Assembly: GCA_006212015.1 (NCBI GenBank)
Contig: SDAY01000003.1
Span: 1 to 64,000 of the forward strand
Length of the DNA stretch: 64,000 bases
Direction: 5' to 3'
From: Halothiobacillaceae bacterium
GTDB lineage: Bacteria; Pseudomonadota; Gammaproteobacteria; Halothiobacillales; Halothiobacillaceae
In this document: in pieces, positions 50,526 through 58,663 of the stretch
How the letters are laid out: the number at the start of each line of letters is the position of its first letter
How positions within the stretch are numbered: the stretch's first letter is position 1
Made by a program: the position numbers and the translations under genes
Notes under the pieces: generated by a model
What the model was told of the DNA's origin: nothing
Database searches by the model: none
Seen by the model: the letters and a program-made list of their open reading frames with translations, nothing else

Positions 50526-51158
50526 ATGGCACGCGCCAGGCAGGCCAGTCGCAAGCGTTCGGCGCCTGCCGTGCCGCGCGCCCTGTGGGGCATGCTGGCC
50601 GCGGTGGTGATCCTGTTCGTGGTGCTGCTGGCCTGGCTTGGGACGCGCGCGCCACAACCGGACAGCCGTGTTTCCCAGCCGCTGCCGGCGGAGAAGCCCC
50701 GGCAGGCGCCGGCGCAGCAGGATGCGCGCGCGGTGGCCGCGCCCCCGGTCAAGGAGCTCACCCCGCCGCCGCCGCGTTACGAGTTCTACAACATGCTTCC
50801 GGCGCAGAAGGTGGAGGTTCCACCGCCGCCGGCTTCCGCGCCTTCAGCCCCGCCACGGGTGGTCGCACCTGCCGATATCCCTCCCAGGCCGGAGGTGGCG
50901 GTGACCACGCAGGGCGCCACCAGCGGGAGCCGCTTCGAGTTGCAGGTGGGTTCTTTCCGCCGCTATGAAGAGGCCGACCGGCGCAAGGCCGAGCTCGCGC
51001 TGCTCGGGTTTTCCGCCAACATCCAGTCGGCCAACGTGCATGGCGAAACATGGCATCGGGTCAAGGTGGGCCCCCTGCCGGAGGTGGATGCGCGCAAGGT
51101 GCGTGATCGCCTCAAGGCCGTGGGCATGAACCCGCTGCTGGTCAAACAGGGCGGCTGA
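50526..51158 (+). CDS. SPOR-domain inner-membrane protein (FtsN-like)
   Basis: 210 residues: short basic N-terminus, one membrane segment (about 19-40, ALWGMLAAVVILFVVLLAWL), a long proline/alanine-rich periplasmic linker (42-130), and a C-terminal SPOR domain (134-208, FELQVGSFRRYEEADRRKAEL). This is the FtsN architecture and the gene follows argS directly, as ftsN-like genes do in many betaproteobacteria and gammaproteobacteria. SPOR domains bind denuded septal peptidoglycan. Whether it is the essential FtsN is not shown. Confidence 0.85.
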   Translation: MARARQASRKRSAPAVPRALWGMLAAVVILFVVLLAWLGTRAPQPDSRVSQPLPAEKPRQAPAQQDARAVAAPPVKELTPPPPRYEFYNMLPAQKVEVPPPPASAPSAPPRVVAPADIPPRPEVAVTTQGATSGSRFELQVGSFRRYEEADRRKAELALLGFSANIQSANVHGETWHRVKVGPLPEVDARKVRDRLKAVGMNPLLVKQGG

Positions 51159-51215
51159 TTCGCGCCGGAGTCAGCCGAAGCGGTCGTGCTTCAGGATGGG
51201 CGCGTGGATGACCTT

Positions 51216-51347
51216 GGGGCACCTCGAAAAACCGTCATCGCGAGCCGCGAAGCGGCGCGGCGATCCATTCAGTCTCGATAGAACCATGCGTTATGGATTG
51301 CTTCGCTTCGCTCGCAATGACGAGCCCCAGGTTTTTCGAGGTGCCCC
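51216..51347. repeat. 132-bp element with perfect 18-bp inverted termini
   Basis: GGGGCACCTCGAAAAACC (51216-51233) and GGTTTTTCGAGGTGCCCC (51330-51347) are exact reverse complements. Inside them lies a second inverted pair, CGTCATCGCGAGC (51233 on) and GCTCGCAATGACG (ending 51322), the same core as the repeats near and inside nadE. It has no coding capacity. It ends 4 bases from the pilR stop and 57 bases from the SPOR gene, so it may serve as a two-way terminator for the convergent genes. Confidence 0.82.
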
Positions 51348-51351
51348 TTGC

Positions 51352-52659
51352 TCATTTGATGCCCATCTTTTCCAGTCGATAACGCATCTGCCGGAGCGTC
51401 ATGCCCAGCGATTCGGCGGCCTTGGTGCGATTCCAGCGGTGGCCCTCCAGCGCCTGCAGGATGCTGGCCTCATCATCGTCCTGCGTGCCTGGGTATGGCG
51501 GCGGGGCGATGGTCGGGCCGTGGCTGAAGGACAGGTCGTCCACCCGGATGACCTGGCCATCGCCAAGGGCCACCGCGCGCTCAAGGATGTTCTCAAGCTC
51601 GCGAACATTGCCGGGGAAGTCATGCGCCTGCAGTCGCTTTGCGGCCTCGGGCGACAGGGTGTGCAACGGCTGCCGGTTGCGTTTGGCCAGCGTTTGCAGG
51701 ATGCGCTCGGCAAGCGCCGGGATGTCCTCGGGGTGCTCGCGCAGGGCGGGCGCATTGAGCTGGATCACGTTGAGCCGATAGAACAGGTCCTGGCGGAAAC
51801 TGCCATCCTGCACCCGTTGGGCCAGATTCTTGTGCGAGGCGGAGATGACCCGTGCATCGACGGGTTCCTCGCGGGTGGCGCCGACCGGGCGCACCGAGCG
51901 CTCCTGCAGGGCGCGCAGCAGCTTGACCTGGACCGTCAGCGGCAGGTCGGCCACCTCGTCGAGGAACAGCGTGCCACCATGGGCGGCCTGGAACAGCCCT
52001 TGCTTGTCCGCCGTGGCGCCGGTGAAGCTGCCCTTGCGATGACCGAACAGTTCGCTCTCGATCAGTTCGGAGGGGATGGCGCCGCAGTTGATGGGCACGA
52101 ACGGGGCATCCGCGCGCGGGCCGATGTCATGGATCAGGCGGGCGATGACCTCCTTGCCGGTGCCTGATTCGCCCTGGATGAAGACCGGGGCCTGGCTGCG
52201 CGAGACCTTGGCGATCTGCTGGCGCAGTTCGCGCATCACCGGCGCATCGCCGAGCAGCCGCTCCGCGCCCGCATCCTTGGTCGGCGGGCGCATCTTGAGC
52301 GCGGTTTCCACCATGCCGCGGAGGCGATCGAGGTCGAGGGGCTTGTTGACGAAGTCATAGGCCCCCGCCTTGAGCGCCTGCACGGCGCTCTGCATGTCGC
52401 CATGCGCGGTGATGACGGCGACCGGCAGACCCGGCTGCAGGTGCTGGATGTCGTGCACCAGCATCAGGCCGTCACCGTCGGGCAGGCGCAGGTCGGTCAG
52501 GCAGAAGTCGAACCGTTGCGCCGCGAGCGCCTTGCGCGCCTCGCCCAGGTCGGCGGCGGGCTGGGACTGGATACCCATGCGTTCGAGGCTGATGCCGAGG
52601 AGGGTGAGGATGTCAGGCTCGTCGTCAACGATGAGGGCGCGGGGGGGATGGGTTGTCAT
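51352..52659 (-). CDS. pilR: Sigma-54-dependent response regulator PilR
   Basis: 435 residues: receiver domain with phospho-acceptor D56 (FCLTDLRLPDGDG), AAA+ domain with Walker A GESGTGKE (163-170) and GSFTGA (210-215), the sigma-54 contact loop in its PilR-typical GSFTGA form, and a C-terminal Fis-type HTH (RTKAAESLGMTLRQMRYRL). PilR activates pilA from a sigma-54 promoter. It overlaps pilS by 4 bases (ATGA). Confidence 0.93.
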   Translation of the reverse strand: MTTHPPRALIVDDEPDILTLLGISLERMGIQSQPAADLGEARKALAAQRFDFCLTDLRLPDGDGLMLVHDIQHLQPGLPVAVITAHGDMQSAVQALKAGAYDFVNKPLDLDRLRGMVETALKMRPPTKDAGAERLLGDAPVMRELRQQIAKVSRSQAPVFIQGESGTGKEVIARLIHDIGPRADAPFVPINCGAIPSELIESELFGHRKGSFTGATADKQGLFQAAHGGTLFLDEVADLPLTVQVKLLRALQERSVRPVGATREEPVDARVISASHKNLAQRVQDGSFRQDLFYRLNVIQLNAPALREHPEDIPALAERILQTLAKRNRQPLHTLSPEAAKRLQAHDFPGNVRELENILERAVALGDGQVIRVDDLSFSHGPTIAPPPYPGTQDDDEASILQALEGHRWNRTKAAESLGMTLRQMRYRLEKMGIK

Positions 52660-56699: not shown

Positions 56700-56730
56700 C
56701 GTCATTGCAAGCGACGCGAAGCAATCCATC
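56700..56730. repeat. Partial copy of the CGTCATTGC repeat between sucD and nadE
   Basis: CGTCATTGCAAGCGACGCGA followed by AGCAATCCATC matches one arm of the core repeat inside the 132-bp element at 51216 and the copy inside nadE. Only one arm is present here, in the 95-bp sucD-nadE gap. Confidence 0.72.
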
Positions 56731-56767: not shown

Positions 56768-58663
56768 ATGAGAATCGCCCTCGCCCAACTCAACCTCACC
56801 GTCGGCGACATCGAAGGCAACGCCGCCAGGGTCATCGACTGGACCCGCCAGGCCGTCGATCGCTTCCAGGCCGACCTGATCGTCTTTCCCGAACTGACCC
56901 TCAGCGGCTATCCGCCGGAGGACCTGGTCAAGCGCGCCGACTTCATGGCCGCGTGTGATGCCGCCGTGCAGCGCCTGCTGCGTGAACTGCCGCAGGGCAT
57001 CGGCGTGGTCATCGGCCTGCCGGAAAACATCGACGGCAAGCGCTACAACAGCGCCATCGTCCTGCGCGACGGCGAGATCGTCGCCCGCTACCACAAGCAT
57101 CGACTGCCCAACTACGGCGTGTTCGACGAACTGCGCTACTTCAGCCCCGGCGCCGAGGCTTGCGTCTTTGAATGGTCCGGTAGGCCTGGCAACGCCAAGG
57201 ACTCGCCGAAAGGCCCGTCCTCCGTCATTGCGAGCGAAGCGAAGCCATCCAACGCGCCCGCAGGGCCATGCGCCCCTGGCTCGCCACGACCCTCTGGGCC
57301 TCGCTATGACGAGATGCATCGGCCGAGTAGCCCGGATGAAGCCTTGGCGGAATCCGGGACGGGCGCCCCCGGACTACACGCCCTGGCGCTGACCCTCTGC
57401 GAGGACATCTGGCACCCCGCGCCCATCGCCCAGGCCCGGGCCGCCGGCGCGCGCCTGATCCTCAACCTCAACGCCTCGCCCTACCAGCACGACAAGCCCG
57501 GCCTCCGCGAACAGACCCTGCGCGCCCGCGCGGCGGAGACCGGCCTGCCCATCGTCTACGTCAACCTCATGGGCGGCCAGGACGAACTGGTGTTCGACGG
57601 CGGCTCCATGGTCATGGATGCGAAAGGCGAGGTGGTCCACCGCCTGCCCATGTTCGAGGAGGCCTTGGGCTGCGTCGAGCTTGCCCCTCTTGAGGGGGAG
57701 GCGGCCTTTTCTCCCCTCTCCCTTGAGGGGAGAGGGGTTGGGGGAGAGGGTGCAGGGCGCCAAGCGGAGGCGCCGGGGTTCTCGATACGCCCCATCGACG
57801 CCATCCGCGCCGAACCGCTGGACGAGACCGCCGCCATCTACCGCGCCCTCGTCCTCGCCATCCGCGACTATGCCCACAAGAACGGCTTCAGGGGCGCACT
57901 GCTGGGGCTCTCGGGGGGCATCGACTCGGCCCTCACCCTGGCGCTCGCGGTCGACGCGCTGGGCGCGGACCAGGTCGAGGCCGTCATGCTGCCCAGCCGC
58001 TACACCGCCGACATCAGCCAGACGGATGCCGCCGCCGAGGCGCAGGCGCTGGGCGTGACCTACCACGTCGTGCCCATCGAGCCCGCGTTCACCGCCTTCC
58101 AGCAGATGCTCGCCCCCCTGCTGCATGGCCCGACCGAAGGCGCCACCGACGAGAACCTGCAGGCCCGCTCGCGCGGCGTGATCCTGATGGGCCTCTCCAA
58201 CGCCACCGGCAAGCTCCTGCTCACCACCGGCAACAAGAGCGAGATGGCGGTCGGCTACGCCACCCTCTACGGCGACATGGCCGGCGGCTTCGCGCCGCTC
58301 AAGGACGTGCCGAAGATGCGGGTCTACCGCCTCGCCAACTACCGCAACACCCTCTCGCCGGTCATCCCCGAACGGGTCATCACCCGCCCCCCCTCCGCCG
58401 AACTGCGCCCCGACCAGAAGGACGAGGACAGCCTGCCGCCCTACCCGGTGCTGGACGCCATCCTCGAGGCCTACATCGAGCGCATGGAAGGCATCCCCGA
58501 GATCGTCGCCAAAGGCTTCGACGAGGCCACCGTGCGCCGCATCGTCCGCATGGTCGACCTCGCCGAATACAAGCGCCGCCAGGCCCCGCCCGGCGCCAAG
58601 GTCACCTCCCGCGCCTTCGGCCGCGAACGCCGCTTCCCGATCACCAACGGGTTTCGGCGCTGA
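56768..58663 (+). CDS. nadE: Glutamine-dependent NAD+ synthetase NadE with in-frame repeat insertions
   Basis: 631 residues against about 540 usual for this two-domain form. N-terminal nitrilase-type glutaminase: catalytic E42 (FPELTLSGY), K110 (YHKHRLPNYGVFDE) and C211 (TLCEDIWHP), all present. C-terminal ammonia-dependent NAD synthetase with the ATP motif SGGIDS (382-387) and YATLYGDMAGGFAPLKDV. Residues about 137-203 and 306-333 have no counterpart in the fold and are encoded by palindromic repeats (see separate entries); they fall between K110 and C211 and in the interdomain linker. ATG 56768 follows GGAAGGTGTCGCC; an earlier in-frame ATG lies in the upstream repeat. Whether the enlarged enzyme is fully active is not known from sequence. 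Confidence 0.93.
   Translation: MRIALAQLNLTVGDIEGNAARVIDWTRQAVDRFQADLIVFPELTLSGYPPEDLVKRADFMAACDAAVQRLLRELPQGIGVVIGLPENIDGKRYNSAIVLRDGEIVARYHKHRLPNYGVFDELRYFSPGAEACVFEWSGRPGNAKDSPKGPSSVIASEAKPSNAPAGPCAPGSPRPSGPRYDEMHRPSSPDEALAESGTGAPGLHALALTLCEDIWHPAPIAQARAAGARLILNLNASPYQHDKPGLREQTLRARAAETGLPIVYVNLMGGQDELVFDGGSMVMDAKGEVVHRLPMFEEALGCVELAPLEGEAAFSPLSLEGRGVGGEGAGRQAEAPGFSIRPIDAIRAEPLDETAAIYRALVLAIRDYAHKNGFRGALLGLSGGIDSALTLALAVDALGADQVEAVMLPSRYTADISQTDAAAEAQALGVTYHVVPIEPAFTAFQQMLAPLLHGPTEGATDENLQARSRGVILMGLSNATGKLLLTTGNKSEMAVGYATLYGDMAGGFAPLKDVPKMRVYRLANYRNTLSPVIPERVITRPPSAELRPDQKDEDSLPPYPVLDAILEAYIERMEGIPEIVAKGFDEATVRRIVRMVDLAEYKRRQAPPGAKVTSRAFGRERRFPITNGFRR
57223..57311. repeat. Palindromic repeat A inside nadE
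   Basis: CGTCATTGCGAGCGAAGCGA at the left and CCTCGCTATGACG at the right are imperfect inverted repeats (the outer 13 bases pair with two mismatches), the same family as inside the element at 51216. It is translated in frame within nadE as SVIASEAKPSNAPAG and onward. Confidence 0.8.
57327..57377. repeat. Palindromic repeat B inside nadE
   Basis: GTAGCCCGGATGAAGCC at the left and CCGGACTAC at the right are inverted ends with one mismatch; the interior GCGGAATCCGGGACGGG is typical of a repeat widely dispersed in proteobacterial genomes. It is read in frame as part of the same insertion as repeat A. Confidence 0.75.
57684..57758. repeat. Palindromic repeat C inside nadE (interdomain linker)
   Basis: The CTCCCCTCTCCCTTGAGGGG core followed by AGAGGGGTTGGGGGAGAGGG is a purine/pyrimidine palindrome of a kind common as dispersed repeats in gammaproteobacteria. 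A smaller inverted pair CCCCTCTTGAGGGG precedes it at 57684. It encodes the linker peptide around SPLSLEGRGVGGEG, with no stop codon in the frame used. Confidence 0.75.

Follow-up and report, generated by a model that had tools for sequence, protein, structure and literature searches.

The segment extending from position 51217 to position 51346 of the DNA analysed here (64,000 nucleotides, hereafter the window) is very probably a 130-bp non-autonomous MITE of the IS5 family that carries a REPIN-like pair of palindromes. Its terminal inverted repeats (TIRs) are common to transposase-coding insertion sequences, it is bordered by a 4-bp duplication, it is short and devoid of a transposase gene, and it exists in several copies. 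A sequence-only reading of the window had already suspected a non-autonomous mobile repeat at this place, and this view is now strongly supported by the several copies, by the ends shared with transposase-coding elements and by the 4-bp target duplications. It can be proposed that a transposase of the IS5_4 type, presumably acting in trans, recognised the 17-bp ends GGGCACCTCGAAAAACC, moved the unit and left a 4-bp duplication, here CTTG. The cargo would be a REP-like palindrome (CGTCATYGCGAG...ATCCAT), amplified separately and present here as an inverted pair; the composite would spread by IS5 transposition, the core also existing alone in many copies. The features of the locus are as follows.

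50526..51158, + strand: SPOR-domain gene, left neighbour, convergent (open reading frame; SPOR name taken from the sequence-only reading)
51213..51216, no strand: left target-site duplication CTTG (read in the sequence; exact 4-bp duplications in 57/98 members of the family)
51217..51233, + strand: left TIR GGGCACCTCGAAAAACC, IS5-family end (same ends on IS5-family elements)
51227..51231, - strand: pilR-direction RNA, U5 tract that the TIR provides immediately behind the core stem (putative terminator role)
51234..51268, + strand: left core palindromic unit GTCATCGCGAGCCGCGAAGCGGCGCGGCGATCCAT
51293..51321, - strand: right core palindromic unit, inverted, GTCATTGCGAGCGAAGCGAAGCAATCCAT on the - strand
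51322..51329, no strand: 8-nt spacer GAGCCCCA from right core to right TIR
51330..51346, - strand: right TIR
51347..51350, no strand: right target-site duplication CTTG (read in the sequence)
51352..52659, - strand: pilR, right neighbour, convergent (open reading frame, orthologs at 69-71% in two congeners; name taken from the sequence-only reading)

The arms GGGGCACCTCGAAAAACC (51216-51233) and their reverse complement (51330-51347) form the sole exact inverted repeat of at least 14 bp with a loop of at most 150 within the 64-kb window, and by our own estimate about 5e-4 inverted repeats of 18 bp would be expected by chance. Thus, the 18-bp exact repeat initially described does exist, but it does not coincide with the element end. 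Direct reading of the sequence shows that the 18th pair is made up of the G that ends one CTTG copy and the C that begins the other, so that the outermost pair belongs to the target duplication. The true mobile unit is therefore 51217-51346, with 17-bp terminal inverted repeats GGGCACCTCGAAAAACC, an end defined by comparison with other elements. Inside the arms, the second inverted pair is present as described (CGTCATCGCGAG at 51233-51244, CTCGCAATGACG at 51311-51322), as are its relatives at 56700 (one mismatch) and 57223 (exact). On the left side, the core abuts the TIR directly, without spacer. With 130 bp, the element is far too short to contain a transposase gene, and the listed open reading frames merely cross through it.

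In the genome to which the window belongs (a draft assembly of 2.39 Mb in 227 contigs, 99.3% complete), the search for further copies advocated in the sequence-only reading found several of them at unrelated places. One copy is identical over 131/131 positions, in the opposite orientation (C166:6789-6919), another is 87% identical (C52:18734-18864), and a decayed full-length copy on C115 reaches 88% over the core. Five decayed arm-core junctions were also found. On C208, C163, C190 and C49, an arm is joined to a core unit with zero gap, and the arm-plus-core pattern is matched with 2 to 5 differences. Single-copy status together with conservation in place had been put forward as the finding that would speak against mobility; the element is multi-copy, and the downstream neighbours of pilR differ in two congeners. 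As to target duplications, CTTG is found on both sides of the window element. Two copies are nevertheless less favourable to an IS5-family MITE: the flanks of the C166 copy, CCGT/CAGT, match at 3/4 positions and do not form a clean 4-bp duplication, and those of the C52 copy share 6 bp, TCCATA, rather than 4 bp. A 59-bp decayed mini-element also occurs in this genome (L364, 84-142; C15:28033-28091), where a degenerate TIR pair surrounds a core-unit fragment (GTCATCGC...).

The origin of the ends is indicated by the elements that share them. At least 119 stretches with these ends were found in a scan of named genomes, mostly in beta- and gammaproteobacteria and in Mariprofundaceae, a host range to be taken as a lower bound. 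The end pairs define short size classes, near 99, 110, 143 and 161 bp (short MITEs of 99-161 bp), and a class of long elements (1232-1294 bp). Where intact, the long elements encode a transposase of about 345 residues with the DDE_Tnp_1 and DUF772 domains, which scores 300.9 bits against NF033581 (IS5 family, IS5_4), the cut-off being 140. Duplications of 4 bp border long elements in Methylomonas fluvii (CCTT, L139), Pseudogulbenkiania (TAAA, L180) and Duganella lactea (TTAA, L202). Among the short elements with flanks, exact 4-bp duplications are seen in 57 of 98 and exact 5-bp duplications in 0 of 98; shifted comparisons, which served as control, give 0 to 4. Two elements bounded by TIRs are as small as 66 and 59 bp (L137, 1940-2005, and L193, 709-767) and have exact 4-bp duplications; they may approach the minimum size of such a MITE.

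Within Halothiobacillaceae, a Halothiobacillus genome (G008) has two intact copies of the parent insertion sequence. In the genome of the window, a relic of it is found at C52:198-1014 (L265, 198-1014), with TIR-like sequence at both ends. Its transposase is 82% identical over residues 1-159, and the catalytic middle has been deleted in-frame. Against the IS5-family assignment, it can be held that an intact cognate transposase was not found in the 99.3% complete draft assembly, where this catalytically deleted relic alone was seen. Insertion sequence copies are often missing from draft assemblies. Plasmid and phage records gave only partial, core-side matches.

Elements of this kind have precedents. 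IS5-family MITEs are known from BrickBuilt, MITE293 and MITE700 of Porphyromonas gingivalis and from ATR of Neisseria (PMC4596501); like the window element, they are short, non-coding and have TIRs matching IS5-family insertion sequences. BrickBuilt is a precedent in general design, as an IS5-type MITE that also encloses another kind of repeat (PMC4596501); however, its cargo is a minisatellite and not an inverted palindrome pair, and its host and interior differ. The Correia elements of Neisseria are likewise TIR-bounded, non-autonomous, of 100-155 bp and of high copy number, with a suggested link to the IS5 family through IS1106 (PMC3898611), but they have 26-bp ends and a TA duplication, as compared with 17-bp ends and a 4-bp duplication here. 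In the literature collection searched, no relevant paper on the arm and core sequences was found. Taken singly, the window element is of a basically commonplace non-autonomous mobile type, with a mild novelty in that it combines two repeat systems within one unit. An orphan palindromic repeat is hereby tied to a concrete transposition system, and the explicit end sequence together with the target duplication gives a means to find a broad class of proteobacterial MITEs.

The core has a distribution of its own. The unit CGTCATYGCGAG is present in 104 exact copies in the genome of the window and in 0-2 copies in each of four congeners; the reversed pattern, taken as control, has 0 copies in the same genome. 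Core units begin with CGTCAT; many of them are paired in inverted orientation, a pair measuring about 67-159 bp, and most core copies are without the IS5-type arms. Moreover, the stems co-vary between units, ATTGC/GCAAT being replaced by ATCGC/GCGAT, and GCCGC/GCGGC by GCCCC/GGGGC. The 104 exact units with their inverted palindromic pairing, the armless state of most copies and the co-varying stems would fit a REPIN-type element, in which a REP-associated tyrosine transposase mobilises the inverted CGTCATYGCGAG pair and to which the arms belong only incidentally. However, the corresponding domain, Y1_Tnp (PF01797, RAYT), is absent from this genome, in a search for which control genomes gave matches, and from another genome holding many core copies (G042). 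In other core-bearing genomes, the Y1_Tnp loci are not flanked by the core. On these grounds, a RAYT/Y1_Tnp protein was rejected as mover of the core. A GT(A/G)G head, as in RAYT-linked REPs (PMC2817692), is also missing from the core units, and the supposedly incidental arms are conserved and go with a 4-bp duplication. An origin of the whole unit by RAYT-driven mobility is, therefore, very improbable. Compared with REPs and BIMEs with RAYT (PMC2817692), the core shares the inverted pair of a high-copy palindrome and the co-varying stems but has neither a GTRG head nor a RAYT in its genome. It is REP-like in form, with high-copy inverted pairs, and falls outside the RAYT-associated REPs.

Two further arrangements of the core were observed in the same genome. 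At 57223-57311 of the window, a core pair lies inside the nadE open reading frame, the translation of which contains additional residues around SSVIASEAKPSNAPAGPCAPGSPRPSGPRYDEMH, as if a palindrome had inserted in-frame. Elsewhere, core units form short direct tandem arrays with periods of about 30 and 37 bp (L365, G000:C19:7111-7212, and L366, G000:C130:3537-3621).

As had been described, the neighbours of the element are convergent, with the SPOR gene on the + strand and pilR on the - strand, and the pilR stop is 4 bases from 51216-51347. The insertion point lies 1 bp plus the target duplication behind this stop. The C-terminus of PilR is intact and matches the C-termini of its orthologs, so that PilR was not truncated by the insertion. 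Downstream of the pilR ortholog, a pilin-like gene was read by eye in congener G002 and a toxin-antitoxin-like pair in congener G004. Synteny behind pilR is thus lost in both congeners with an ortholog, so that an orthologous empty junction cannot be demonstrated, a point that weighs against an IS5-family MITE. When the flanks of sibling elements were joined and compared with all retrieved loci, just repeat-like matches or self-matches were obtained.

These comparisons also bear on the idea that the segment belonged to the pilR locus ancestrally, as a conserved regulatory RNA or intergenic element. A strong predicted fold would agree with it; nevertheless, the element is missing downstream of pilR in G002 and G004 and is multi-copy in its own genome, and no Rfam match was obtained at the gathering score, nor any better than E 0.96 in a relaxed search. 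Such an ancestral element is refuted for the congeners tested, G002 and G004, by its absence there, and its overall probability is close to nil.

A structured bidirectional terminator, kept by selection between the convergent genes and with a mobility that is only historical, is a better candidate, though still an unlikely one. Both strands are predicted to fold near -74 kcal/mol, with z about -8, and in the pilR direction the core stem (-42.9 kcal/mol for a 98-nt piece) runs straight into UUUUU. Moreover, the element lies between convergent genes, and a consensus scan called no other terminator in the SPOR-pilR intergenic stretch. However, the stability of the fold follows from the nested inverted repeats themselves, copies of the element are found at unrelated places, and in the SPOR-gene direction (+ strand) U5 follows the core stem at a distance of about nine nt. 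The consensus scan, a weak test as it considers loops of 3-8 only, found no site in the element. The two-way terminator suggested from the sequence is, therefore, not supported, the stem abutting U5 on the - strand alone. A one-way role for pilR is plausible on the basis of the predicted stem and its U5 tract: having inserted as an IS5-family MITE, the element may now help to end pilR transcription, in that direction only.

Finally, the ends recur around at least six unrelated interiors. In Halothiobacillus G008, a 110-bp MITE with these IS5 ends (L348-L359) is abundant and encloses an inverted pair of the pattern ATTCCC(N8)GGGAAT, found within one mismatch in 12/12 elements read out. This pattern is that of the dRS3 and NIME repeats of Neisseria (PMC3898611). 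These sister MITEs thus resemble dRS3/NIME, but the core of the window element does not have the pattern, its stems being ATTGC/GCAAT or ATCGC/GCGAT. Almost every element of the 143-, 110-, 130- and 120-bp classes has GTC(A/G) or CGTC immediately after the TIR at one end, and none has it at both. Furthermore, the 110-bp (dRS3-like) and 130-bp (CGTCATYGCGAG) classes have in common the layout TIR, GTCAT, pair, GACGA, about 8 nt, TIR. The one-ended continuation suggests a shared ancestral end, and it is possible that the same short sequence has acted as a capture point for palindromes starting with CCGTCAT. It is conceivable that a single lineage of IS5-type MITEs swaps its palindromic cargo, such palindromes being captured or exchanged via the short shared sequence; it would then be a recurrent vehicle for repeats devoid of a transposase. 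This scenario has perhaps a minor chance of being correct. If true, it would provide a testable answer to the question of how palindromic repeats without a transposase of their own reach new sites. The roles of prokaryotic MITEs, including possible ones as terminators, have been reviewed (PMC10969869).

A second MITE with the same IS5-type ends, of 153 bp and rich in hairpins, was seen in the genome of the window, on contigs C4, C95, C127, C7, C83 and C133 (L031, 1498-1650; L063, 1501-1653; L065, 1501-1653; L032, 2-154; and others). Where both flanks are present, its duplications are TGAA, AATT and TTTT.
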